A stretch of DNA of 64,000 nt from Oscillospiraceae bacterium (GTDB lineage: Bacteria > Bacillota > Clostridia > Oscillospirales > Ruminococcaceae), in the NCBI GenBank assembly GCA_009784825.1, contig WQXO01000007.1, positions 1 through 64,000 of the forward strand, read 5' to 3'. Below are positions 22,769 through 54,412 of the stretch, piece by piece. Position 1 is the stretch's first letter; every line of letters starts with the position of its first letter. A program made the position numbers and the translations under genes. Below the pieces are notes generated by a model. It worked only from the letters and a program-made list of their open reading frames with translations. It ran no database searches and was not told where the DNA came from.

Positions 22769-23158
22769 TCATCTCCTCTCCAAAATTATCCCCTCTACAT
22801 ACGCCAATACCGCATTAGCGACTTCACGGCGGTAGGGCTGTTCCCTCGAAACCTCACCTTCGTATATAATGGGTATGCTGTACTTTGCCGCTATACGGTT
22901 CAGGATATTAACCGAATCCAATACAGAATTATGGCAGGTCGTTCTGCGATTGTCTAATTCTTTCATTTTATCTTGATAATCCTCACGTGACATATTATCG
23001 TAATTATACAATTTTAACCACGTTTCCATTTCGAAAATTGCCTTGTGATACTGCCCGAATGAGTCCATGCACTTTGTAATCATGCCAAGTGCCATTGGCT
23101 CATTTTTTACTGCTTTGAATAATTCTGCGAGATTGTCTTTTGATAATGTGTGTGTCAT
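22769..23158 (-). CDS. DUF3232-like helical protein, unknown function
   Basis: 129 aa, almost entirely alpha-helical by composition. The segment DNRRTTCHNSVLDSVNILNRIAAKYSIP, followed by GEVSREQPYRREVANAVLAYVE, resembles from memory the conserved C-terminal half of DUF3232 proteins of Clostridia. No catalytic motif is evident. AAGGAT precedes the ATG by about 8 nt. It lies 22 bp downstream of the formylglutamate amidohydrolase-like gene on the same strand and is the last gene of that run. Confidence 0.55.
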   Translation of the reverse strand: MTHTLSKDNLAELFKAVKNEPMALGMITKCMDSFGQYHKAIFEMETWLKLYNYDNMSREDYQDKMKELDNRRTTCHNSVLDSVNILNRIAAKYSIPIIYEGEVSREQPYRREVANAVLAYVEGIILERR

Positions 23159-23180
23159 AGTTTTTTATCCTTTCCATAAA

Positions 23181-23927
23181 TCAGTTTAAGCTGTCAACAA
23201 AGTCTTTTATGTGGCTTTTTATAGAATTAAATCCATCTGAGATAACCCCGGTTTCCTCGTCCATATATAGCTTCCTGTTTATTTCTATCATAACAGATTC
23301 AATTTTTCCCTCAAGTCCGGTCGGTATAATCGCGCCTGAAAAGGGATAATTAAACTTTACGGTTAGTCCCTTTTCTTCAAAGAAACGCTTTGCTCCGTTG
23401 GCGAGGGGAGAAGACTCACCGTTAAACCCAATACATATATCGGGTAACGTGTCGCTGTAATCGTAGCAGAATATAGGTTTTGACGAAAATGAGTGTAAAT
23501 CAATGATTAAACATTCGCCGTGTCGGTTCAATATATCATTACACATTAATTTCAATTCATCGTGATACAGCTTGTAGTATTTCTGAATAAGTTCGGCTCT
23601 GTATTCGTCCGTTACTGTCCTCAACGGTTTTTCGTCATGGGTCGAGGTATAGACAACTCCCATGCCGTGCTTCGCCATAGGCTCTTGCGAGTCGTCATCA
23701 TACCGCTCCATGTCAACGACAAGCCTGCTTATTTCGGAAATCAGCATATTAACAGGAATATCCTTGCACAATTCGTCCAGATGCCGGTCGGTCATTATCA
23801 GTTTTTCTTTTTCCAACGCCGAATCATCTAAGAGGATATGCTTTCTGTCATTCTGTGGGATATTCAACGATGAATGGGGGATATGTAGCAGAATATAACT
23901 GTCTTCTAATTCTTTTCTAAATATCAT
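23181..23927 (-). CDS. N-formylglutamate amidohydrolase family protein
   Basis: 248 aa from ATG 23927 (AAGGAG 7 nt upstream; the longer frame from 23945 begins inside the previous gene). Family features are LLHIPHSSLNIP (about 12-23), the TDRHLDEL segment (about 46-53), SRLVVDMERYDDD (about 67-79) and DLHSF (about 142-146). These supply the His/Asp/Glu metal site of HutG-type hydrolases, which release formate from N-formylglutamate in histidine degradation. No other hut gene is present and the gene is mobile-element cargo, so the substrate may differ. Its start overlaps the LRR gene by 11 bp. Confidence 0.75.
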   Translation of the reverse strand: MIFRKELEDSYILLHIPHSSLNIPQNDRKHILLDDSALEKEKLIMTDRHLDELCKDIPVNMLISEISRLVVDMERYDDDSQEPMAKHGMGVVYTSTHDEKPLRTVTDEYRAELIQKYYKLYHDELKLMCNDILNRHGECLIIDLHSFSSKPIFCYDYSDTLPDICIGFNGESSPLANGAKRFFEEKGLTVKFNYPFSGAIIPTGLEGKIESVMIEINRKLYMDEETGVISDGFNSIKSHIKDFVDSLN

Positions 23928-25383
23928 TTTTCTTCTCCTTTCCATTTACAGCATCATAAAACTCTTGCGGCATATCGTATGAATCTCTGTTATGCCGTTT
24001 CTCACTTTTATACGTAATTCCTTTATATATTACACTTATATCAGGTAATTCACCATAGAATAATCTCTTTCCTACAGATGTAACGCTATTCGGAATCACA
24101 ACATTTCTCATTTTTTTACAACCGTGGAATAAATGCACTTCATGCCCGCAGAAAGGCGTTTCAATTCTCTTAATACTATTAGGAAAAACAACATCTGTTA
24201 AGTTTTCACACCCGTTAAACAACTGCATTCTGATACGAGTCATGTTATCGGATAAAATAACGCTTTCGAGGTTTTTGCACCCGCTAAATGCGTGTTCACC
24301 AATATCCACCACACTATTGGGTATTATTAGATTTGTTATTGCCGTGCAATCGTAAAATGCTAAATCATCAATGCTTATTAAACCATAAGGCAGTTCAATA
24401 CTCGATAAATTTGAACAATAACTAAACGCACTGCGGCATATATGCTTCACGCTTTTCGGTACTGTATACGATTTTTGCGTTTTTCCCGGCGGATAAGAAA
24501 TTAAAGCCGTTTTATCCTTATTGAAAAGAACACCATCTTCGCTCGAAAATCCATAGTTATGTTCATCGACAATAATTTTATTAATTATGCTGTCCTTGTG
24601 ATTGAATATACCTTCTCGGATTTCAACTATGCTTTTAGAAATATAAACACATTCAGAGTTGCTTTCCAAAACACTCTCAAAACTATTCAAAGTCAAATTG
24701 TCAATAATATTATGAAACTCCTGCGACAAATTTTCACAAGCACAGAATGCCTCTTTGCCAATGTATTTAACCGTATCAGGGATTGTTATGTCCGTCAAAT
24801 TAAGACAGCATTTGAAAGCCCTGTCATCTATATGCTTTAAACCATGTGGCAGTTTAACAAAACTTAAATATATGCAGTTGAAAAATGCCATGTATCCAAT
24901 AAATTCAACATCATTTGGTATTTCATAAGAGGTCTGCCTATTCCCCGAGGGATAAGCAAGTAATGTGTTCTTTTCTTTGTTAAACAGAATTCCGTCAACA
25001 CTTGAGTATTCTTCATTGTTCTTATCTACGCTTATTTCGGTTATTCTCCCATTCGGATTATTAAAAATCATATCGTCAATGAAAATAATGCTTTTCGGTA
25101 TATAAACAAATTCTACATCGCTCCCATTAAAACAATTACAGTAAATAGCGGTTACCGGATTACCGTTAATCCTTTCGGGAATGTATACCCTCATAGAAGC
25201 CCCTGTGTATTTATATATTTCTATGACACCTAATTCCTCGTCATATTTATATTTAAAATCACTTGCGGGCGTCTCTTCTGTGTTTTTAAAAAAAGAAGAG
25301 GGGGTTAATTCCCACTTTTTAGACAAGCAAAACGCTTTGCCTCGGTATTCATTGCATTTAATATCATAATCCAATGAACTCAT
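23917..25383 (-). CDS. BspA-type leucine-rich repeat protein (LRR_5)
   Basis: 488 aa with about 12 repeats of 22-23 residues of the form IPxxVxxIGxxAFxxCxxLxxV, e.g. NLTDITIPDTVKYIGKEAF and GLISIDDLAFYDCTAITNL. Repeats run from about residue 65 to the C-terminus. Two insert blocks begin YSSVDGILFNKEKNTLLAYP and FSSEDGVLFNKDKTALISYP. There is no signal peptide or transmembrane helix, unlike secreted BspA adhesins, so it may be cytoplasmic. GAAAGGAGG precedes the ATG. The role is unknown; such repeats usually mediate protein binding. Confidence 0.8.
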   Translation of the reverse strand: MSSLDYDIKCNEYRGKAFCLSKKWELTPSSFFKNTEETPASDFKYKYDEELGVIEIYKYTGASMRVYIPERINGNPVTAIYCNCFNGSDVEFVYIPKSIIFIDDMIFNNPNGRITEISVDKNNEEYSSVDGILFNKEKNTLLAYPSGNRQTSYEIPNDVEFIGYMAFFNCIYLSFVKLPHGLKHIDDRAFKCCLNLTDITIPDTVKYIGKEAFCACENLSQEFHNIIDNLTLNSFESVLESNSECVYISKSIVEIREGIFNHKDSIINKIIVDEHNYGFSSEDGVLFNKDKTALISYPPGKTQKSYTVPKSVKHICRSAFSYCSNLSSIELPYGLISIDDLAFYDCTAITNLIIPNSVVDIGEHAFSGCKNLESVILSDNMTRIRMQLFNGCENLTDVVFPNSIKRIETPFCGHEVHLFHGCKKMRNVVIPNSVTSVGKRLFYGELPDISVIYKGITYKSEKRHNRDSYDMPQEFYDAVNGKEKKNDI

Positions 25384-25431
25384 AAAACTATTACCTCCTT
25401 TCTTTTATTTTTAACAAAGCATGCGGGATTA

Positions 25432-25471
25432 CCACTATAAGTCAATAGCGGTAATCTCGCACAAATTAAAA
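25432..25471. terminator. Imperfect hairpin between surface-protein and LRR genes
   Basis: A 17-bp stem (25432-25448 with 25455-25471; one G-U pair and one mismatch) lies 5 bp past the stop of the 25476 gene. The downstream T-run is weak on the minus strand, so it may be an attenuator or processing site rather than a full terminator. Confidence 0.5.
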
Positions 25472-25475
25472 CCCT

Positions 25476-26663
25476 TTATTTTTTTCTCTTGAAAACAACC
25501 GCAACCGTTCCTGAGATTAACAGTGCCGCAAGCGGTATAGCAGCACCCGTCGGCGGATTGTTATCTCCCGAATCGTTTTCGTAGACTATCTGTAGCAGCT
25601 CTTGGGAATTAAAACTATCGAAATACTCTTTCGGGAGGTCTACTTTGCCGTTCTTCGTCGGTAACTCTATTAAGAAGATAAACGCTCCTACGCTTTCGTC
25701 TTGGTCGATGATAGTTGCGAAGCTGTTGCCGTCAGACAGCTTGAAGTCATTAGGGGAATTATCAAAGAAATATACACGCACCCTTAAATTAGTTGTGTCC
25801 TTGCCTGCCTCTCCTCCTCCGGCTACAGAAGCATGAGTGATAACCGCATTATATTGCCCGCCACTTTGATACTGTCCACCGCTTAATATAAACGGATACC
25901 CGTCTATATCGGTGGAAAAGTTTGTGCTTCCGTCAACACCTTCAAGCTGAAACGCTGTGGAAACTTTGGAATTTGCGAACTCGAAGTTATCGTTCCAAGC
26001 CGTTCCTCCTGAAAGCATGATAAATTTATAACCCTCTGAACCTTGAATATTCGACAGAGTCACCGTTCGCACATTTCCGTCACCGATTATTGACACATCC
26101 GCAGTAAAGCCGACAGTCGATATATCCCCTGCGTTTAGGTCGATTTTTCTGATATTGTCGTTATAGATTAGTGAAAAGGTTACATCTTCCCCAACACGGA
26201 CTTGGGATTTGCTCGGCTCGGATATGATTATGCTGAGAGTATGGCTGACACTTTCATCATCTGTAATCGAAAACGGGATTGTAGCCGCAACAGCGTTTGC
26301 GAATTCACCATCGCTTGTTGCCGCTGTGCCGCCGCCAAAGCGAATATACTTGTCGCCACCGACCTCGCCTTGTATGTTTGCAAGCGTTATTGTCCTTACA
26401 TTTCCGTCGCCGGTTACAGAAATATCGGCACTAAACCCGACGGTTGCTATGTCACCGCTTTGTAAGTAAACACCACCTACATCCCCGCTGTACACTACTA
26501 CATAAGTAACTGTTACGCCTGCGTTTACGCTATTGCTGCTCGGCTCGGACACTGTAACGGTAATCGTGCCGGGTCCTGCCGCCGTTGCCATAACCGGAAT
26601 TGCCATAATTGTAATCGCAGCAGCGATTATGTAAGAGGTAAGGTTTCTTTTTAAGTTTTTCAT
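25476..26663 (-). CDS. Secreted Ig-like repeat surface protein with NPPTG sorting signal
   Basis: 395 aa. An N-terminal signal peptide (basic KNLKRN, hydrophobic core to about residue 28, cleavage near ATAAG) is followed by two related Ig-like domains (about 32-138 and 142-250). These are recognisable by the paired blocks SGDIATVGFSADISVTGDGN and AGDISTVGFTADVSIIGDGN. A third region (about 255-365) follows. The C-terminus is a sortase-type signal: NPPTGA, a hydrophobic stretch and KRKK. No sortase gene is in the window, so anchoring would rely on a chromosomal sortase. AAGGAG precedes the ATG. It is probably a cell-surface adhesin or decoy carried as element cargo. Confidence 0.8.
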   Translation of the reverse strand: MKNLKRNLTSYIIAAAITIMAIPVMATAAGPGTITVTVSEPSSNSVNAGVTVTYVVVYSGDVGGVYLQSGDIATVGFSADISVTGDGNVRTITLANIQGEVGGDKYIRFGGGTAATSDGEFANAVAATIPFSITDDESVSHTLSIIISEPSKSQVRVGEDVTFSLIYNDNIRKIDLNAGDISTVGFTADVSIIGDGNVRTVTLSNIQGSEGYKFIMLSGGTAWNDNFEFANSKVSTAFQLEGVDGSTNFSTDIDGYPFILSGGQYQSGGQYNAVITHASVAGGGEAGKDTTNLRVRVYFFDNSPNDFKLSDGNSFATIIDQDESVGAFIFLIELPTKNGKVDLPKEYFDSFNSQELLQIVYENDSGDNNPPTGAAIPLAALLISGTVAVVFKRKK

Positions 26664-26853
26664 AGTGTTTCTCCTTAATTTTTGTTATTTTGGGCTTACA
26701 TATACTATATCACCAAGAAAAACAATGAAGTAAAAGTTTTTTGAAAATTATTTCAAAAGAATTAAAATTAAATTCATTAAAGCGGTTGAATTGTAATCCA
26801 ATACTACAAATCATTTGCTATAATGAATTTAATCCTCCTGTCGCAGTTAATTT

Positions 26854-27738
26854 TTAAGTTCTGCATTCAGCAGGCTTTTTTTCTTTTATTAACCTTTCTG
26901 TACCAATTTTTACTGCACAAGCATCTAAAAATTCTTCATACCGCTCTTTGCGGTCAGTAACAGTGGGCAAGGATACGCCATAACACTCACTTATTGTTAT
27001 ACGCCATCTTTTCAAATCATCGGGGTTCCTAAGTTCATTATCTACAACATCTCTCATATGAGAGAAACGCCCTTTCATTAAATGCATAAGCAAGGGTTTA
27101 TCCATCGGCTTAAACAGTTTACCACTTTCATAAATTGCTATTTTTGCACATTCGGAATCTTCTTTAACCAATTTAGTCATGTCAAATGTATAAAACCATT
27201 CAACATTCATCCGCTTTGTAATAGGTTTGTTTTTATCCGCACTTTTTTTCAAGTAGACAAGTTCCGCCACCTTTAGAGCGATTTCTAACTCTTCATAATT
27301 TTCAGAAATTTCTTTCCCACTTTTATTAATATCAGGGACTTTCTCCCAAACTCTTTCATCATCGTCCTTTTTATTAATTTCATAGATTACTTTTTCTTTC
27401 ATTTTTTTAAAATGGGTTTTTACACGAAAATTAATTAAAATGTGCAGCGTCGTTGAAAAATCTGCACCTTCGCTTTTGGGTATATATTTTTTTCGTAGAA
27501 TTAATCTTGCATATTCACTAAAAATAATATCCCAAAAGTAATAAGCCTCAATAGGTTTATGATTTCTATAATATACTCTCCCGGTTTCAGACACTCTATT
27601 AAACCAACCGATTATTACTGTCGCTATTTCAAGCTCTATTGTTGTAATTCTTGAGGCGTTTTCTTCCGAGTTGTCATTTGTCAGGTTAATTAACTCATTT
27701 GCAAGTTTATTAATACTATCTTTCTCTTCTTTAGTCAT
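26854..27738 (-). CDS. Unrecognised helical protein with sigma-like and helix-turn-helix segments
   Basis: 294 aa, charged and mostly helical. The segment FWDIIFSEYARLILRKKYI (about 69-87), followed by TTLHILINFRVKTHFKKMK, resembles sigma-70 region 2. Near the C-terminus ISECYGVSLPTVTDRKERYE (about 248-267) reads as a helix-turn-helix like region 4 or a simple DNA-binding domain. The similarity is by impression. It is the last gene of the three-gene STAND operon and overlaps the CARF-like gene by 8 bp, so a regulatory or effector role in that system is the best guess. Confidence 0.45.
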   Translation of the reverse strand: MTKEEKDSINKLANELINLTNDNSEENASRITTIELEIATVIIGWFNRVSETGRVYYRNHKPIEAYYFWDIIFSEYARLILRKKYIPKSEGADFSTTLHILINFRVKTHFKKMKEKVIYEINKKDDDERVWEKVPDINKSGKEISENYEELEIALKVAELVYLKKSADKNKPITKRMNVEWFYTFDMTKLVKEDSECAKIAIYESGKLFKPMDKPLLMHLMKGRFSHMRDVVDNELRNPDDLKRWRITISECYGVSLPTVTDRKERYEEFLDACAVKIGTERLIKEKKPAECRT

Positions 27739-28381
27739 TATCTTCTTCGCCCCCTATTCCCAGCATAATCTTAATCGCCGTCTCCGGGTTCGGAACTTTC
27801 ATTTCCGCGAGTTTATTAACTATCTCATTCATATAAAACAACGCAGTAGTGTCATAAACTCCGTTTTTGTTACTTATTGTTTCTTTGGGGTCATATCTCC
27901 CATAAACAACACATCCAATCGACACATTCACTTTTAATCTATACGCATAATTTAAAGCCATAGAAAGAATTATCGGGGTGGGTTTCGTGCCGAAAGTTAT
28001 ACAAGCAGAAACCTCTTCATTTCCTTTGATAGCATCGACAATATCGCTGAACAGCTTTAGCTGCGTATCAATATCTTCGCTGTCAATCACATCTACAAAC
28101 TCTGTTTTAACTGAGGCAAATCCCTTTTTTTCTTTGAGTTTGTTAATATCCTCAAGAAAGCACTCCCTATAATTGCGTTCAAAAATAGGGGTATCTTTCT
28201 TAATGATAATAATCCGAACATCGTCCCCCTTTTCCGTGTAGCCGTTTATCGCCGGAATAATAGGGAAATGTGCCTCGTCATAATCAAGTCTGCTGTTTCC
28301 GTAACCCTTATACGGTTTTTTAATGGGAGGGTTAGGTGCTTGGAAGGGTATGGCGGTGATGAATGTTTTTGTTTTTTTCAT
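27731..28381 (-). CDS. CARF-like (Csx1/TM1812-type Rossmann) small protein
   Basis: 216 aa. The core carries ACITFGTKPTPIILSMALNY (126-145), then VNVSIGCVVYG (151-161). This matches the strand-GTKP/S-helix and second strand of CARF ligand-binding domains (the DxTHG/GGTKP signature of TM1812 and related families). The N-terminal FITAIPFQAPN and VRIIIIKKD strands fit a Rossmann-type sheet. No HEPN or nuclease domain is fused, so it would sense a nucleotide signal or act as a partner. There is no CRISPR array or cas gene in the window. It sits 43 bp after the STAND gene on the same strand. Confidence 0.55.
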   Translation of the reverse strand: MKKTKTFITAIPFQAPNPPIKKPYKGYGNSRLDYDEAHFPIIPAINGYTEKGDDVRIIIIKKDTPIFERNYRECFLEDINKLKEKKGFASVKTEFVDVIDSEDIDTQLKLFSDIVDAIKGNEEVSACITFGTKPTPIILSMALNYAYRLKVNVSIGCVVYGRYDPKETISNKNGVYDTTALFYMNEIVNKLAEMKVPNPETAIKIMLGIGGEEDND

Positions 28382-28424
28382 AAAAAGGGCTCCTTATCAA
28401 TTATAGAAATGAATTGAATATTAA

Positions 28425-31400
28425 TCAATTACCTCTTCTTATTATTACTCTATTAAGAACATAAGTCATGAATTTTTTTTCGGGGAATTTGTTATTAACA
28501 CCTATTTCTTGAACTGATACCTCTACAAAACTTTTTTTTGAAACTACTAACTTACTATTCGTAACATTACCCTTTCTAATACGCCCTTCATGACCAATTC
28601 CAATATCAACAAATACATCTCCAAAACCAGTAATGCTTGTTATTAAACCATATTTTATATCACCGACATTAAGATTTGAAATATTGGTGTTCGGAATTAA
28701 AATACCACCAAAACTTTGTGTGTTTTTTCCATCGCTTCCGATAAAAACCTTTACTTCATCTCCAATATTACATATATTTTCGAAAGTTTCATTTCCATTT
28801 AACGGTATATAATCTTTTCCAATTGAAACTTCATGCATTCCATCAATTAACGCAACAACTTTGTCGTTTTCTTTCCGTGTTATTACAGCGTCATGTAATT
28901 GTCCATATTTAATTTTGTTTTTTGCTGCTATTATTGCTTTTCTCTCATCTTCTAATAACACTTTGAAATCTCGGGTATAGTAATTGTTATTAAATTTTTC
29001 AATAACGCCCTCAGCAATTTCACGAGACCTGTCAAAACAATTCAGTTTTTCATTTACTAATGCGGCTTTATATAATGCATCTTTAATATTATTTTTCACA
29101 CTATAATCAAGTTGTGAAATGTCATCATGTTTTATAATAAAATCATATAACCAATTCCCGTAAACATTTAATATTTCTTCGATTTGTTTAACATTTTTGT
29201 CGAAATTAACAGTATCATATACGTATGATAGCCTGCACATCGCACAAAAGGCAGAAAAACCAGGTTCTTTGCTTTTTCTAAATCCTTTATTTCCAGCAAA
29301 GAAATGCTCTATGTATTTACAGGTGTACGTTTTATCAATAGCCCAAAGCATATATATAACTTTCTCACGATTTGCTATAGTTAAATCTATTTTTTCTATA
29401 AACTCTTCCCATGTTTTAATAAATTGTTCACGGTCTTCCTTTAAAATATCCAATAATTTAATAAAAACATTTTGTTGAGTATCAATAATTTCTACAGTTT
29501 TATAATTGCAATTCAAGATGTCGTGGCAATACTTAATCGCGTCTTCAGTATTTCCTATTCTACGTGATAAACTTATATGCGGAAGTTTATCTTCCACACC
29601 TTTTTTTATTCTATGGTATTCATTTATTCCCTTTTTTAAATCTTCATTGCTATATTCATCGAAACACTTATTCATTAAATCCATTAGTGGTTTTTCTTTT
29701 ACTCGATATAAACCTTGTTGCCCTACTTCAATTATATCTCGTTCACTCAACTCCTCCAAAGCATTTTTAAGATTTGATTCATCAATTTTTTCTCTCAATA
29801 ATTCATTTAAAGTCTTTTTATAAAAAAAATAATAATCCCCTTCTTTAACAAAATCACATATTTTTGAAATGCATATAAATACTTTTTTAGTATCTTCCGA
29901 TAATCCGTTATACGTTTTCCCGTAAATAAAGTCAAATACACTATCATTTTCCATTAATCTTTTATCCGGTAATTGTTCAGAATATTCATGCACAAGAGAA
30001 TATGCATATCCCTTAATAAGCATAGGATTTCCAATAGTTGAAGCAAAAACAATCGCTTTTGCACTTTCGTAATCGTTTTCTATTTTTTTTATAGCCCAGT
30101 CTACTCTTATATCTAATTTTTTAATGGTTTCCGTTAAATAACTTAATGTATCTTCTTCTTCCAACTTATTACAGTCTATGTTGGCGCCATATATATTTTC
30201 TTTATAGCGGGTAGTTATTATTACTCTTGCAATGAGTATATCTAAATGTTCGTTTATAAATTCGATAATTCTTTTTTTATTTTCATCATCAAAAGTCTCG
30301 AAATCATCAATTACAAGCAACAATTTATTTTGGTTTTCAATGTTTTCATAAGCGTGACTTTTTTCGTATAATAAATCCTTGATTTTCTTCTCAATGGTTT
30401 CCCCCCCCTCGGGAGTAATTCCTAATATGTCACGGATTTCTTCCATAACTGCATCATAACTATTTACATTGTTTATTATATTTTCCGCATTTTGATTTAT
30501 TGCATTAAACACCCTGTTCTTCGCAGTAATAAAAACTATATGTTGAAATTTTCTTTTATCATCTGTGCATTTGAATAAATCGGAACATAATTTTTGAACA
30601 CAAGCTGTTTTGCCGGTGCCGCCTTGACCCACTATTGTAATACAGGTGTTACTAGGTTTTCCTATAAAATCTCTTAGTCTTCTATCAATGTTTTTTGTTG
30701 TTGCAGTTTCTATGAATTTATCTGTATCACCATAGTTACATTCGAATATATTCATCTCACATTTATTAGATGTGTTTCTTTTAATTTTTTTGTCATCGTC
30801 TCTGAACACACCTAAATCTCTAAATTCTTCTATAAAAAACGTTTCATCATCTGTAGAAAATACCTGATTAAATCTGAATTGAGCCGTATTTAAATCAACT
30901 GCTTTGCTATAAAAGTAAACTTCTTCAGACTCTGTCATCTTAATAAAAGGCGATAACCTTATATACTCGTTATTTATCCGCCAATACAATTGAGGAAAGA
31001 ATTCTTCTTGTTTGGCAATGAAACCACAAGGTATTTCTGAGAAAGCACCATGTGGGGTCATGCTTGAATAGTTTATTGCTTGGTAATTATTCCCAGCTTT
31101 ACCTGTGATTATAACGGTTACTATGTCTTGATTTAATTCTATAGGGAAGTTTCTCACATAACTTTCATATAAATTGTTTAAATCATTTGATATGACTGGT
31201 GCACCATCATCAAATACATAACCATGTGCTAAATTATCGTTACGAATTGTCGAATATTTCTCACAACCATTATTTGTCAAAAGTTTGTTAAATACTTTTG
31301 ATATAGAAGTATTATCATCTAATAATACTTCTGCCAAGAGTCTTTCAAGGCTACCGAATTGTAATAATTTAATAACCTTTATTGCATAGCTCTTATCCTC

Positions 31401-31559
31401 TTGAGATAGGTTTTCAAAATTTTTGTTCCAATAATATCCAAGCAAAACTAATAATAAATACTCCATACGAACCCTCTGGTATATGAGTTCCTCGCTATGA
31501 TTTCCTTTTAAATTGGCATTTCTAATTTTATTGTTTAAACGCGAACTAATATAATCCAT
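28425..31559 (-). CDS. Putative HEPN-STAND NTPase with C-terminal S1-like RNA-binding domains
   Basis: 1044 aa multidomain protein. The N-terminal helical domain contains RNDNLAHG with Arg106 and His112, the Rx4-6H signature of HEPN ribonucleases. The NTPase domain has Walker A VGQGGTGKTA (310-319), Walker B LLLVIDDFETFDD (about 413-425) and a RVIITTRY sensor (about 448-455), as in STAND/NB-ARC proteins. A winged-helix and helical-repeat region follows (about 520-870). The last 165 residues look like two OB folds; the second, VGDIKYGLITSITGFGDVFV (965-984), is a good S1 match. The architecture fits an NLR-like antiviral protein in which S1 domains sense RNA and HEPN cleaves it. GGAGGGG precedes the ATG. 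Domain calls are by eye. Confidence 0.75.
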   Translation of the reverse strand: MDYISSRLNNKIRNANLKGNHSEELIYQRVRMEYLLLVLLGYYWNKNFENLSQEDKSYAIKVIKLLQFGSLERLLAEVLLDDNTSISKVFNKLLTNNGCEKYSTIRNDNLAHGYVFDDGAPVISNDLNNLYESYVRNFPIELNQDIVTVIITGKAGNNYQAINYSSMTPHGAFSEIPCGFIAKQEEFFPQLYWRINNEYIRLSPFIKMTESEEVYFYSKAVDLNTAQFRFNQVFSTDDETFFIEEFRDLGVFRDDDKKIKRNTSNKCEMNIFECNYGDTDKFIETATTKNIDRRLRDFIGKPSNTCITIVGQGGTGKTACVQKLCSDLFKCTDDKRKFQHIVFITAKNRVFNAINQNAENIINNVNSYDAVMEEIRDILGITPEGGETIEKKIKDLLYEKSHAYENIENQNKLLLVIDDFETFDDENKKRIIEFINEHLDILIARVIITTRYKENIYGANIDCNKLEEEDTLSYLTETIKKLDIRVDWAIKKIENDYESAKAIVFASTIGNPMLIKGYAYSLVHEYSEQLPDKRLMENDSVFDFIYGKTYNGLSEDTKKVFICISKICDFVKEGDYYFFYKKTLNELLREKIDESNLKNALEELSERDIIEVGQQGLYRVKEKPLMDLMNKCFDEYSNEDLKKGINEYHRIKKGVEDKLPHISLSRRIGNTEDAIKYCHDILNCNYKTVEIIDTQQNVFIKLLDILKEDREQFIKTWEEFIEKIDLTIANREKVIYMLWAIDKTYTCKYIEHFFAGNKGFRKSKEPGFSAFCAMCRLSYVYDTVNFDKNVKQIEEILNVYGNWLYDFIIKHDDISQLDYSVKNNIKDALYKAALVNEKLNCFDRSREIAEGVIEKFNNNYYTRDFKVLLEDERKAIIAAKNKIKYGQLHDAVITRKENDKVVALIDGMHEVSIGKDYIPLNGNETFENICNIGDEVKVFIGSDGKNTQSFGGILIPNTNISNLNVGDIKYGLITSITGFGDVFVDIGIGHEGRIRKGNVTNSKLVVSKKSFVEVSVQEIGVNNKFPEKKFMTYVLNRVIIRRGN

Positions 31560-31595
31560 TGCTTCCCCTCCAAATAATTATTAAGATATTTACTC

Positions 31596-31639
31596 ATTCT
31601 ACCATAATCCCCCATAATATGTCAACGCCCCCATAATAT
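31596..31639 (-). promoter_or_regulatory. Promoter and direct-repeat operator of the STAND operon
   Basis: Minus strand TTGACA (31625-31620), 18-bp spacer, TAGAAT (31601-31596). Two identical 12-bp repeats (CCCCCATAATAT on the plus strand, 31609-31620 and 31628-31639) lie 19 bp apart and overlap the -35 box and spacer. This is a layout expected for a repressor binding site on one face of the helix. Confidence 0.6.
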
Positions 31640-31685
31640 TTTGTCGAAAATGCACAATTTTTGCAACTGCATTTTTACACCCCCC

Positions 31686-32270
31686 TTATAACTGCGTTTT
31701 ATCATCAAGCACCCTATCCACCAACCCATACGCTACTGCCTCTTCCGCACTCAAATAATAATCCCTATCCGTGTCAACAGTAACCTCTTGAACGTCTTTA
31801 CCCGTTGCTTCCGCTATAATTTGATTAAGAATTTTCTTGGTTTTCAAAATATTCGCAGCAGCACGCTCAATATCGGAAGCCTGACCCCTTGCTCCGCCTA
31901 ACGGCTGATGAATCATCATCTCGGCATAAGGCGTAATATATCGTTTACCTTTTGCCCCGCAAGCCGTTAAAAACGCACCCATGCTTGCCGCCATTCCGGT
32001 GCAAACGGTCGCTATGTCGCTTTTACTGCGATTCATAGCATCCATAATCGCCAACCCCGCTGACACACTCCCACCGGGGCTGTTAATGTAAAGGAAGATG
32101 TCCTTGTTGTTTTGTCGGTCTAAATACTCGATTTGCGATATTATCTCCATAGAAAGCCCATTGGTTATCTCGCCAACTAAAATAATCTTTCTGCTCTCAA
32201 AGAATTCAAGAGATAATAAATCGCAAACGCTTCTTCCTTGCTTGTCAATTGTAGTAATTGTCGGTATCAT
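31686..32270 (-). CDS. ClpP-family serine protease, element-borne copy
   Basis: 194 aa with a complete ClpP triad: Ser96 in GMAASMGAF, His121 in MMIHQPLGG and Asp170 in TDRDYYLSAEEA. The oxyanion strand motif YINSPGGSVSAG (61-72) is intact and the length equals that of housekeeping ClpP. No Clp ATPase is adjacent; the gene lies 21 bp downstream of the VirD4/TraG-like ATPase on the same strand. AAGGAGGG precedes the ATG. It may work with host ClpX/ClpC, substitute a subunit of the host protease, or serve the element's own system. Confidence 0.92.
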   Translation of the reverse strand: MIPTITTIDKQGRSVCDLLSLEFFESRKIILVGEITNGLSMEIISQIEYLDRQNNKDIFLYINSPGGSVSAGLAIMDAMNRSKSDIATVCTGMAASMGAFLTACGAKGKRYITPYAEMMIHQPLGGARGQASDIERAAANILKTKKILNQIIAEATGKDVQEVTVDTDRDYYLSAEEAVAYGLVDRVLDDKTQL

Positions 32271-32291
32271 AAAACCCTCCTTTTAAATAGC

Positions 32292-34271
32292 TTATTCTGC
32301 TTCATTGCTCCATTCAAAAACCAATCCCAGTGATAACAATTTCTCCCGTATTTCATTGAACGAACGCTTGCCGAGGTTACGGATGCTTTTCATTTCTTCC
32401 GAAGATTTCTTGATTAAATCATCAATTGTGTTAACCTCTGCACGTTTGAGGCAGTTAAAAGCACGCACCGTTAAATCTAAACTCTCAATTGTCATATGCA
32501 AAACTTCGTTTTCCTCCTCCTCATCATCGAAGAAATCGGCTTCATTAACATCAATTTTAATATAATCACCATTCATATCTTCATCGCTGATATATTCAAA
32601 GTCTTCCGGTTTAACAGTATAATCATCGTTTGGTTTTATTTTTTCTTGTGCTGAACCGAAGAGTTCGTTAAACTCCCGTGCCAATTCTTCTTGAATATTA
32701 TAGCTTTCGTCAGTTTTATTTCTTTTACCGATTTCATCGGGAACACAGTCAGTAAAAGGTATAGATATTACTTTATTCATAATATCAGAATACATCATTT
32801 CGGGTGTATATACCGACAATTTCTTGTCTTTCAGCTTATGCACGAACTTAGCGACGTTTTCGACTTTATGTTTATCCAAAAACGTGTATTGGTCAATATC
32901 ATTTAATCTTGCACAGTATTTAATATTATCTCTGATAAACAATGCTTCCTTGTACTCCGAATTCTTTCTCATATTACTCAGTTCTTCCGGTGTAATGAGA
33001 AGTTCGGGGTGTTCGCTTTGTGTAATATTGCTCATTCCACACTGCCTACTGATATAAGAGAGCATTTCATAGTCAGAACTTTGAAGAAAGATACAGTTTT
33101 TACAGTTCCCGATAATTGTTGTAGCTTCCTTTTCATAACTTGCTTCTAACTGGCTTTTGGATTGACACACTAAATACCATTTCATGTTCCTGCTGCGGCT
33201 GGCACTAATCTTAGCCGACATATCGTTAATTCTCACGTTACAGAACTCATCACAGATAAAATTAATTAGGCATTTAGGTGATTTTCCGGTGTTTTGATAC
33301 TTTTCACCGTATACCTCAACAAGATGACTGTATAGATTATCTATGATGATTCCCGATAAATGGTCATAGGCACTGGTTTCATCTGGAATAACTAAGAATA
33401 CGCACAATGGTTTTTCATAGGCTTCATTTATATTAAATGTAGTTACTGACAGCATTTTTAACAGAGACTCTTGGCACAGAAAATCCGCAAACAGGGAATT
33501 AGTAACCGCAACAATAGAAACCTTTGTTTTGTCGGCAGTGCCGAAAACTGTTTTCAATTGATGAGTATAATTGTTTGTCACTCTTTCGGATACTTTGTTA
33601 ACAATCTTCTCAAATACATCGGTATTATGCGAAAAAAATGTTGATAACGACAAAAGATTAATAAACTCAAAATAATCTTTCTTATTCTTGCAGCATTCAA
33701 ATAAAAGTCTAACAGTCGGAATAATGAGTGTTTGTGCCATATCATTCCAAAACGGGTCTGCTTTTGTATCGTTGTATTTCGCAGTCATCGCCGAAACTAA
33801 CCGTAAAATACTCCCCATCGCTTTATCTTCTTCACCTTTCATAAAAAGCTCATAGGGATATTGCAATATATTATATCCATCACATTTAAAATTTTTGAAA
33901 TCCAATATAACGCTTTGAATATTGTTATACTTTAACCAACCGATAATTTTAGGGTCTGTTGATAGCTCGCCTTTAACATCAGTTACTATCATAGACTGTC
34001 GAGCTCCCGCAACAGTAGTTATAAGCGGTCTGATACAGCTACGAGTCTTTTTCGACCCCGTTTCACCATATATAATCGTATGAGAATCATCATCGACAAC
34101 CGCTGCTTTGCCGTTTCTTATAATTAGAGGAATACCGCTTGTATCATACGTTTTTGCATTTAAATTAACCTTATTAAATGTATTGAATATGTAGTCGTCA
34201 GTAGCGAACTCGCTATGGTTGTTCGGAAACGTATATTGCCCCCAATCGGACTCAAAATTATAATCTTTCAT
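32292..34271 (-). CDS. VirD4/TraG-like ATPase fused to an RNA polymerase alpha-CTD-like domain
   Basis: 659 aa. The ATPase part has a modified P-loop YGETGSKKTRS (about 68-78; Lys replaces the usual Gly before GKT), IVTDVKGEL (about 94-102, typical TraG), NFICDEFCNV (Walker B, about 333-342) and a CQSKSQLEASY segment (motif III of coupling proteins). There is no N-terminal membrane anchor. After an acidic linker (about 560-590) the last 65 residues read IESLDLTVRAFNCLKRAEVN followed by RNLGKRSFNEIREKL, a clear match to the alpha-subunit C-terminal domain, which binds DNA and regulators. I see no relaxase partner. It overlaps the upstream gene by 14 bp. Confidence 0.82.
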   Translation of the reverse strand: MKDYNFESDWGQYTFPNNHSEFATDDYIFNTFNKVNLNAKTYDTSGIPLIIRNGKAAVVDDDSHTIIYGETGSKKTRSCIRPLITTVAGARQSMIVTDVKGELSTDPKIIGWLKYNNIQSVILDFKNFKCDGYNILQYPYELFMKGEEDKAMGSILRLVSAMTAKYNDTKADPFWNDMAQTLIIPTVRLLFECCKNKKDYFEFINLLSLSTFFSHNTDVFEKIVNKVSERVTNNYTHQLKTVFGTADKTKVSIVAVTNSLFADFLCQESLLKMLSVTTFNINEAYEKPLCVFLVIPDETSAYDHLSGIIIDNLYSHLVEVYGEKYQNTGKSPKCLINFICDEFCNVRINDMSAKISASRSRNMKWYLVCQSKSQLEASYEKEATTIIGNCKNCIFLQSSDYEMLSYISRQCGMSNITQSEHPELLITPEELSNMRKNSEYKEALFIRDNIKYCARLNDIDQYTFLDKHKVENVAKFVHKLKDKKLSVYTPEMMYSDIMNKVISIPFTDCVPDEIGKRNKTDESYNIQEELAREFNELFGSAQEKIKPNDDYTVKPEDFEYISDEDMNGDYIKIDVNEADFFDDEEEENEVLHMTIESLDLTVRAFNCLKRAEVNTIDDLIKKSSEEMKSIRNLGKRSFNEIREKLLSLGLVFEWSNEAE

Positions 34272-34938
34272 ATTCTTCTCCTTTCACTATATCCATTGCT
34301 TCCTTGAATGTTTCTCCGCAGAACAATCCAACAAAGGAATCTTCCATTGACACGCACCTCGACAGTTCCGACATGGTTATTCCATTACCGTTACACTGTT
34401 CCAGAAGCTCGCTCATCATCATATTGAGCATTGCATACCCATGTAGCCTGTTGCTCTTAACAAATAAATCTGCAAGAAAGGTTGCAGATTGCTTGTCTAT
34501 ACGGTAGTTCGAATGAATATGTTTACCTAATTCATCGCTCCGGATGAGAGTTCTGTCCTCTGTAATGCTTCCACGCATATACATACTTGCCTTTATGTAC
34601 AGTTCTTGAATGGCTTCCCTTGAATTACTTCCCACGGTAAAGATATACTTAACGTCACTATGGTCGTGGAAGAACTTCATTGCGGTTTCAAAATACTCCT
34701 CTTCCTCGTGTCCGACCCACTCTGAAACATCAACGGCGACATATTCATATCTCGGCTTGAATGGTCTATACTTGGTTTTAAGCTGAAAACTTTTTAATTC
34801 TTTGAACTTGTCATAGGGTGGTGTATATCTCATCTTAAAGCTAACGACTTGAGCGTTACCACCTAAAAAACACTTTACAGCTTCATCGTTGTTAGTGACT
34901 CCGGTTACCAAAAGAACAAAATCATTCTTGTTTAACAC
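34258..34938 (-). CDS. Unrecognised protein with P-loop-like fold features, TraG-ATPase partner
   Basis: 226 aa. The N-terminal strand-loop FVLLVTGVTNNDEAVKCFLG has the shape of a degenerate Walker A without GK[ST]. A later strand YEYVAVDVSEW ends in acidic residues like a Walker B, and KYIFTVGSN resembles sensor I. It may therefore be an inactive ATPase relative. The 14-bp overlap with the VirD4/TraG-like gene argues for a joint function. The family is unknown. Confidence 0.5.
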   Translation of the reverse strand: MLNKNDFVLLVTGVTNNDEAVKCFLGGNAQVVSFKMRYTPPYDKFKELKSFQLKTKYRPFKPRYEYVAVDVSEWVGHEEEEYFETAMKFFHDHSDVKYIFTVGSNSREAIQELYIKASMYMRGSITEDRTLIRSDELGKHIHSNYRIDKQSATFLADLFVKSNRLHGYAMLNMMMSELLEQCNGNGITMSELSRCVSMEDSFVGLFCGETFKEAMDIVKGEEYERL

Positions 34939-53470: not shown

Positions 53471-53567
53471 CGCATGGTATAATTCTGCGAGGCGGCAATG
53501 CTTACCCCTCTTTGCGAAATATGTCGAAACCCGCTTGACAAGCAGGTTTGTTTGTGGTATGATAGAG
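53457..53567 (+). repeat. Promoter-bearing repeat, copy 1
   Basis: Starts in the last codons of spmB (TACTGTTGTACTGACGCATG) and ends TATGATAGAG. It is about 90% identical to 54301-54409. It includes a full promoter: TTGACA 53535-53540, 17-bp spacer, TATGAT 53558-53563, driving the gene at 53583. Confidence 0.85.
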
Positions 53568-54300: not shown

Positions 54301-54412
54301 TACTGTTGTATTGACGCATGGTAATTCTGCTTTGCGGCACTGCTTGCCCCTCTTTGCGAAATATGTCGAAACCCGCTTGACAAGCGGGTTTGTTTGTGGT
54401 ATGATAGAGGTA
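54301..54412 (+). repeat. Promoter-bearing repeat, copy 2
   Basis: TACTGTTGTATTGACGCATG at the start and TATGATAGAG near the end; the second copy of 53457-53567. Promoter TTGACA 54377-54382, 17-bp spacer, TATGAT 54400-54405, driving the GNAT gene at 54443. The first 15 bp recur at 55688-55702. Confidence 0.85.

Follow-up and report, generated by a model that had tools for sequence, protein, structure and literature searches.

A CARF gene paired with a sigma-like gene beside a HEPN-STAND gene in an Oscillospiraceae genome: two predicted modules at one locus

Do three neighbouring genes that encode a putative RNase, a nucleotide-sensing protein and a possible transcription factor form one defence operon, or have two separate modules come together? 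The question is raised by a stretch of 64,000 nucleotides from an Oscillospiraceae bacterium (assembly GCA_009784825.1, contig WQXO01000007.1, positions 1 to 64,000), the whole of which is called the window here; the source genome is of 2.18 Mb and 98.7% complete. A preliminary description had proposed three genes between 26854 and 31559 as a single candidate operon. Three open reading frames were recovered at that place, all on the minus strand:

28425 to 31559, minus strand: gene 1, open reading frame of 1044 amino acids, predicted HEPN-STAND(-S1) protein
27731 to 28381, minus strand: gene 2, open reading frame of 216 amino acids, stand-alone CARF protein (PADLOC CARF2--CARF)
26854 to 27738, minus strand: gene 3, open reading frame of 294 amino acids, CARF partner and putative divergent sigma-70-like protein

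It was found that the unit which recurs in other genomes is genes 2 and 3, not genes 1, 2 and 3. The description favoured here, with modest confidence, is that of an NLR-like RNase module in tandem with a ligand-gated CARF-sigma switch, the two of which we infer to be linked.

The CARF gene and its partner

The assignment of gene 2 as a stand-alone CARF agrees with the preliminary description. PADLOC model PDLC01821 (CARF2) covers residues 5-208 with an E-value of 7.4e-67, and by this profile match gene 2 is confirmed as a true stand-alone CARF of the CARF2 group; by score it belongs with the stand-alone CARF2 proteins of PADLOC (PDLC01820-01823). The TM1812 model (TIGR02221) was matched at 1.6e-8 with 34.8 bits, under its curated cut-off of 76.25 bits, and gene 2 is not counted as a member of that family. 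With fusions included, the CARF2 model matches 31 of 398 genomes of the phylum and 19 of 297 genomes of the family, and 12 genomes among the same 297, besides that of the window, have a stand-alone CARF. CARF relatives were not found in viral contigs.

Twenty stand-alone CARF loci were examined (the window, L036, L037, L038, L047 and L076-L090), one of which, L078, is truncated by the end of its contig; L039 and L040 were left out of the count as partial matches within longer proteins. BLAST and profile comparisons place the gene that follows the CARF in the gene 3 group in 15 of the 19 assessable loci; these are eight core partners (window, L036, L037, L076, L077, L080, L081 and L082), five GC-rich partners (L085-L089) and the partners of L090 and L047, which match each other by BLAST at 2e-11 and as a pair reach 79% to the GC-rich group. 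Four loci are exceptions: the partners of L083 (423 amino acids) and L038 (642 amino acids) showed no similarity to the gene 3 family, and L079 and L084 carry a different gene in the partner position. The stand-alone CARF genes of L079 (4008-4589) and L084 (9017-9616) each lie by a sensor histidine kinase, recognised by Pfam in the former and by reading in the latter, and a secreted-like protein, and are without a sigma-like partner. In L083 (4507-12125) two Sel1-repeat proteins are encoded near the CARF; both have the HEPN-type motif RNEAAH in the C-terminus, and one of them also matches sigma-70 region 1.1 (7.4e-7).

The trees of CARF and partner co-vary: over 16 loci r is 0.86 (Mantel p 2e-4), counting L083, whose partner homology is unproven, and over the eight-locus core r is 0.59 (p 0.004). 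This fits a direct action of the CARF on its partner, yet it is also expected from shared inheritance. The pair lies repeatedly beside RNA-targeting defence loci, and the contexts of the 15 pairs are as follows:

L036, L037, L076, L077, L082 and L090 (6 of 15): type III CRISPR; for L076 the Cas10 locus sits on a separate contig
L080 (1 of 15): Cas13d (NF038189, 2.5e-253)
L081 (1 of 15): Mokosh-like kinase/helicase (MkoA 1.8e-113, MkoB 1.4e-8)
Window (1 of 15): HEPN-STAND
Treponema plasmid (1 of 15): context class unclear
L085-L089 (5 of 15): no recognised defence neighbour; the neighbours are Sel1/NPCBM, PP2C, Big_2 or amylase genes

At L080, cas13d directly follows the pair, and the repeats there read as CRISPR arrays. 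The pair is thus found with type VI-D CRISPR, an RNA-targeting system; unlike that locus, the window is without Cas13. No title on a pairing of Cas13d with CARF and sigma was found among the literature titles retrieved. An association with HEPN as a rule for all pairs was dropped: L085-L089 lie beside the other genes just listed, and no HEPN protein was identified in L082. A 526-amino-acid protein of L081, first taken as HEPN-like, lacks the motif arginine on reading.

The proposal that the trio forms one conserved system did not survive the survey of co-occurrence, the refuting condition named in the preliminary description: the trio was found nowhere else, and the proposal is rejected on the genomes searched (297 of the family, 398 of the phylum) and on the seven loci of HEPN-STAND relatives. 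At none of these seven was a CARF or gene 3 detected by tblastn at a threshold of 0.01, some of the flanks being short, and two of them, L049 and L050, seem to be a single element. A narrower form of the idea is that the three genes are nevertheless one defence operon, in which the HEPN-STAND protein would be sensor and effector and the CARF with gene 3 would be its dedicated tuners or silencers. The shared strand, the gap of just 43 bp that separates gene 1 from gene 2, the 8-bp overlap of genes 2 and 3, the lack of a terminator-like site between the three genes on the minus strand and the position of the pair next to other RNA-targeting systems all speak for this arrangement. It is set back by the absence of the trio elsewhere in the genomes searched and by the promoter that the CARF may possess for itself, and we regard it as rather unlikely. 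The sites concerned are:

31596 to 31625, minus strand: promoter-like TTGACA-N18-TAGAAT upstream of the HEPN-STAND gene, 11 of 12 consensus bases, a score that 1.2% of random window stretches of 150 bp attain
28400 to 28428, minus strand: promoter-like TTGATT-N17-TATAAT between gene 1 and the CARF gene, 10 of 12 consensus bases, a score reached by ~5.5% of such stretches

The co-transcription assumed earlier is not established, as one promoter-like site is found just upstream of gene 1 and another just upstream of the CARF. Given the latter, each module in the window may be transcribed as a unit of its own. Of the eight core loci, four (the window, L080, L081 and L082) have in the 150 bp before the CARF a promoter-like site that reaches at least 10 of 12 bases.

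The HEPN-STAND protein and its relatives

31224 to 31244, minus strand: codons of RNDNLAH (R106-H112), HEPN-type motif of gene 1

The R-x4-6-H motif of the HEPN RNase superfamily is conserved in the gene 1 family. In RNDNLAHG, to which the preliminary description had drawn attention, R106, N107, H112 and G113 are invariant in six of six N-termini, and likewise in an alignment of five sequences that includes the window protein. A PDB profile search of the N-terminus returned a single match up to E 10; this was the HEPN RNase Las1, over the motif, at E 0.93. The Csm6 HEPN model was matched by one of the six N-termini (E 0.02) and no HEPN model by that of the window itself. These matches are no more than suggestive of a HEPN fold at the N-terminus.

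The STAND identity of the central part, read earlier from a P-loop (VGQGGTGKTA) and IDDFETFDD, stands, while not all of the motif positions are fixed. The STAND part takes up residues about 296-455, and the window protein matches AAA_16 (2.3e-7) and NB-ARC (1.6e-4), both just under the Pfam cut-offs, and NB-ARC is above its cut-off in two of the three relatives scanned; in the Pfam view gene 1 has an NTPase of the AAA/NACHT/NB-ARC type. In the five aligned sequences G311, G313, G314 and G316-A319 of the P-loop are invariant and Q312 and T315 vary; I417-D419 and E421-F423 are invariant and F420 varies. By its P-loop, Walker B motif and similarity, gene 1 qualifies as a STAND, NLR-like NTPase on the sequence level. 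At the C-terminus, where two OB/S1 domains had been proposed, one weak S1-like stretch remains (residues about 960-1022; PF00575 E 0.82) and the second was not recovered. The three best PDB rows for this stretch are the S1-bearing proteins bS1 and Tex (E 0.44-0.63), and the relative in L044 has an S1 match of 0.0052, below cut-off.

In general layout, bNACHT proteins are the same as Avs. For Avs, a central STAND NTPase with an N-terminal effector and a variable C-terminal part is described (PMC12724215). Gene 1 shares this NLR-like STAND layout with AVAST/Avs and bNACHT. Unlike Avs, the window protein and three relatives have no Avs match in PADLOC, and the N-terminus here is HEPN-type and the C-terminus S1-like; gene 1 fits no catalogued PADLOC system and gave only weak matches to mad8 (0.0034) and Cmr5 (0.085).

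The relatives are scattered. One from Runella is on a plasmid, its reading frame broken after 569 amino acids; those of Leptolyngbya and of a Saprospiraceae bin have 911 and 1185 amino acids, that of Microscillaceae is a fragment, and two on viral contigs have 907 and 868. In L044 (7369-15109) the HEPN-STAND gene sits inside a type I restriction locus, its neighbours on the two sides reading as hsdR and hsdM/hsdS, those of L046 and L049 are in phage-like contigs, and that of L033 is on a plasmid. These locations in a restriction locus, phage-like contigs and a plasmid support a defence role of the large protein. The family is sparse: it occurs in one of the 297 family genomes, the window's own, and the two matches in the 398 phylum genomes are the window itself and a stop-ridden frame of 43 amino acids (7.5e-4). 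No match was found in 50,697 phage records, and of the two in 72,556 plasmid records one is a distant NB-ARC protein. The order of G691 has no second member (1 of 35, itself), and no close copy of the gene in the phage contig L046 was found in E. coli genomes.

A sigma-like protein and a motif around the pair

Gene 3 had been described as having helix-turn-helix or sigma-like features. Direct library matches of the window protein did not bear this out, and the assignment stands through relatives only. The partner in L090 matches TIGR02937 (sigma70-ECF, where ECF denotes extracytoplasmic function) at 3.9e-7 with 29.9 bits, below the cut-off of 42.9. A profile built from four sigma factors of the window's own genome is matched by the five GC-rich partners with a probability (P) of 84% (E 7.8e-6) over apparent sigma regions 2-3. 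The core partners in turn match the five GC-rich partners at P 95% (E 2e-8), and still at P 83% (E 9e-6) when the window and L077 are taken out. Gene 3 of the window, aligned by hhalign in a leave-one-out comparison with the seven other core partners, reached P 87% (E 3.7e-6) over residues 181-274, in 92 columns at its C-terminus; 14 unrelated window proteins used as controls gave at most 1.5%. Across the eight core members the leave-one-out values range from 49% (L037) to 99.8%. Against the four-sigma profile, 20 single-sequence controls gave at most 2.4%, an inexact comparison as the controls are not profiles. L090 matched that profile weakly (58%), and a broader profile of nine mixed sigma factors gave no signal. 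By this chain of relatives gene 3 would be a sigma-70-like protein that has diverged very far.

It might instead be an unrelated helical adaptor that binds the CARF and is no sigma factor. Such an adaptor would suit the lack of a direct library match for gene 3 of the window, and no single core member reaches the sigma profile alone; it is hard to reconcile with the sigma70-ECF match of the L090 partner, with the alignment of the GC-rich partners to the sigma profile and with the ECF-like motif specific to the locus that is described next. We consider it improbable.

When L080, L081 and L083 were searched for repeats of CRISPR arrays, AAACTTAATCG...GAGTATA blocks came out as repeated in L080 and L081. 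The motif is present in 8 copies in L080, 5 in L081 and 3 in L082, with a spacing from AACTT to GTATA of 24 bases in 4 copies and 25 in 12, where the pattern permitted 20-27. In its relaxed form it is confined to these three loci and overlapping pieces among 107 records (106 loci and the window). The strict form was searched for in six genomes of one genus, and all six matches are at the pair (4 of 4 in G167, 2 of 2 in G077); the genus's other four genomes have none, and the reversed control also gave none. In this comparison G234 has a weak partial CARF match, and the CARF status of G714 and G715 was outside the test.

Over the 297 family genomes, AAACTTAAT-N15..18-GTATA matches in 33. G077 has 11 copies, of which 8 are by the pair, 2 together elsewhere and 1 at a site also found in G234; in G167 all 4 copies, and in G111 3 of 4, are by the pair. 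Within 9 kb of the CARF lie 15 of the 19 genome-wide copies of these three genomes. Of the 30 other matching genomes G115 has two copies and the rest have one each, so that all 294 others have at most 2, and the reversed motif gives a similar low background. Among other genomes that carry the pair and lack a cluster, G056 and G254 each have a single copy, at a distance from the CARF, and G019 has none, which indicates that the motif accompanies only the kind of partner found in L080, L081 and L082. A blind dyad search ranked the motif as top dyad in L080; other repeats rank first in L081 and L082. The motif is bipartite, ECF-like and promoter-like, and is clustered around the pair in three genomes. 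Its copies precede small genes, a putative lipoprotein and, in L082, csx20 (PADLOC 1.8e-36). Csx20 is a confirmed ring nuclease for cyclic tetra-adenylate, cA4 (PMC12409355).

In the window, GTATATGTAAG at 26690-26710, before the gene at 25476-26663, looks to the eye like the motif's tail and was set aside, as the full profile was unmatched.

The ligand and the proposed mechanism

Cyclic oligoadenylates (cOA) are the ligands of CARF domains in type III loci, and Cas10 was sought with one model, PF22335, in 16 genomes. It was counted as present in eight. In G656, G544, G056, G111, G019 and G254 type III neighbours were seen, the match of G019 being below cut-off, and G691 and G079 were counted from a match and a type III locus, the Cas10 sequence itself being unread. 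The matches in G000, G077, G167 and G002 turned out on reading to be GGDEF proteins, that of G077 in spite of lying above cut-off; the same holds for one above-cut-off match of G254. G284, G275, G031 and G221 have no match to PF22335. The eight genomes in which Cas10 was not found are drafts, 86-99% complete, and seven of them (G000, G077, G167, G284, G275, G031 and G221, not G002) carry the pair. No Cas10 was found with this model in the one draft of the window's genome, the only match being a GGDEF protein below cut-off; no Cas10/RAMP locus of a type III system was found adjacent to the window CARF or in its genome, and the Cas1 match of that genome falls in an apparent cas9-cas1-cas2 locus. 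Cas10-made cOA is therefore an unlikely ligand there.

The CARF domain of RtcR binds tRNA 5' halves with a 2',3'-cyclic phosphate (PMC7790460). By analogy, and as no Cas10 was found in the genome, the ligand of the window CARF is more likely to be RNA-cleavage products with 2',3'-cyclic-phosphate ends, or another nucleotide signal, than Cas10-made cOA. RtcR, a CARF-AAA-HTH activator of RNA repair, resembles the pair in that a CARF is tied to transcription; it is one fused activator with AAA and HTH parts, whereas the CARF and the sigma-70-like protein are separate here.

The pair could also be an orphaned ancillary module of type III CRISPR, which once answered cA4 from a Cas10 system now lost or borne on a plasmid, and which is at present idle or answers the cOA of another element. 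The type III settings of 6 of the 15 pairs and the motif copy before the ring nuclease gene csx20 in L082 are in keeping with such an origin. So is the mobile look of the window region, which follows from the coupling protein and the large serine recombinase in the vicinity; the three genes lie downstream of:

31686 to 32270: gene of a ClpP-like protease, the immediate neighbour of both the coupling protein and the HEPN-STAND gene
32292 to 34271: VirD4-like coupling protein; its C-terminus carries an alpha-CTD domain of RNA polymerase (residues 584-645, 8.6e-25)

Against the origin as an orphan speak the seven pair-carrying genomes in which no Cas10 was found, and the Cas13d and Mokosh-like pair loci, whose 8 and 5 motif copies mean that the pair looks in use without Cas10. 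We think this explanation doubtful. Elsewhere in the window, two 88-nucleotide copies (53480-53567 and 54322-54409) are 93% alike and 842 bases apart.

The favoured reading, that of two modules in tandem, may be put in the following steps. The first module would be a single-gene, NLR-like predicted defence protein that senses via its variable C-terminal part, here S1-like ended; upon sensing, the STAND NTPase would oligomerise and switch on the N-terminal HEPN RNase, whose activity we infer. In the second module the CARF, proposed to act directly on the sigma-like partner, would bind an oligonucleotide and thereby free or activate that partner, provided that it is ligand-gated; the partner, if an active sigma factor in this genome, would then transcribe a few nearby genes. 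Both modules may be functionally linked in the window.

Several observations weigh against this reading. The trio was seen once, in the window, and five of the 15 pairs (L085-L089) are those without a recognised defence neighbour. Gene 3 of the window matched no sigma model or profile of the libraries directly. The window and its whole genome have no copy of the motif, the best score of the motif profile in the window being 9.5 against 26.6-45.6 for the training sites, and the blind dyad search of the window gave nothing above controls; with no copy there, the regulon is seen for relatives only. As to gene 1, the only N-terminus of the six to match mSLOG is the window's own (8.8e-5, 23.1 bits, cut-off 27), and the relatives in L043, L046 and L049 are shorter and without an S1-like C-terminus, the S1 similarity being weak.

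A more far-reaching version, in our estimate distinctly unlikely, takes the CARF-sigma pair as a portable alarm for RNA-cutting immune systems (NLR-like HEPN, Cas13d and type III) and the window as a receptor wired to a relay. Cleavage would yield cyclic-phosphate RNA ends or cOA, which the CARF would read; the ECF-like sigma factor would be released and would fire private promoters around the locus, such as those of a ring nuclease and small membrane proteins.

One of the closest arrangements on record is CalpL-CalpT-CalpS, the Lon-SAVED protease, anti-sigma factor and sigma factor of type III CRISPR, in which cA4 is linked to a sigma factor via a protease and an anti-sigma factor (PMC12751052, PMC11229360). 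There, as proposed here, an oligonucleotide sensor governs a sigma factor in a defence setting. In contrast to Calp, a stand-alone CARF here has a divergent sigma-like protein as its partner, outside type III loci as well, and neither a Lon protease nor a SAVED domain was found in the ten window proteins scanned (22769-34938). A description of the pair or of the trio was not found in the literature as far as it was available, which is to say not found rather than not known.

CARF sensing is known mostly as the direct control of a fused effector. If the present reading is true, a stand-alone CARF with its own sigma-like factor and a promoter-like motif specific to the locus would mean that RNA-targeting immunity can also direct a transcription programme. 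The pair accompanies Cas13d and other genes in genomes that gave no Cas10, which raises the question of the CARF ligand.

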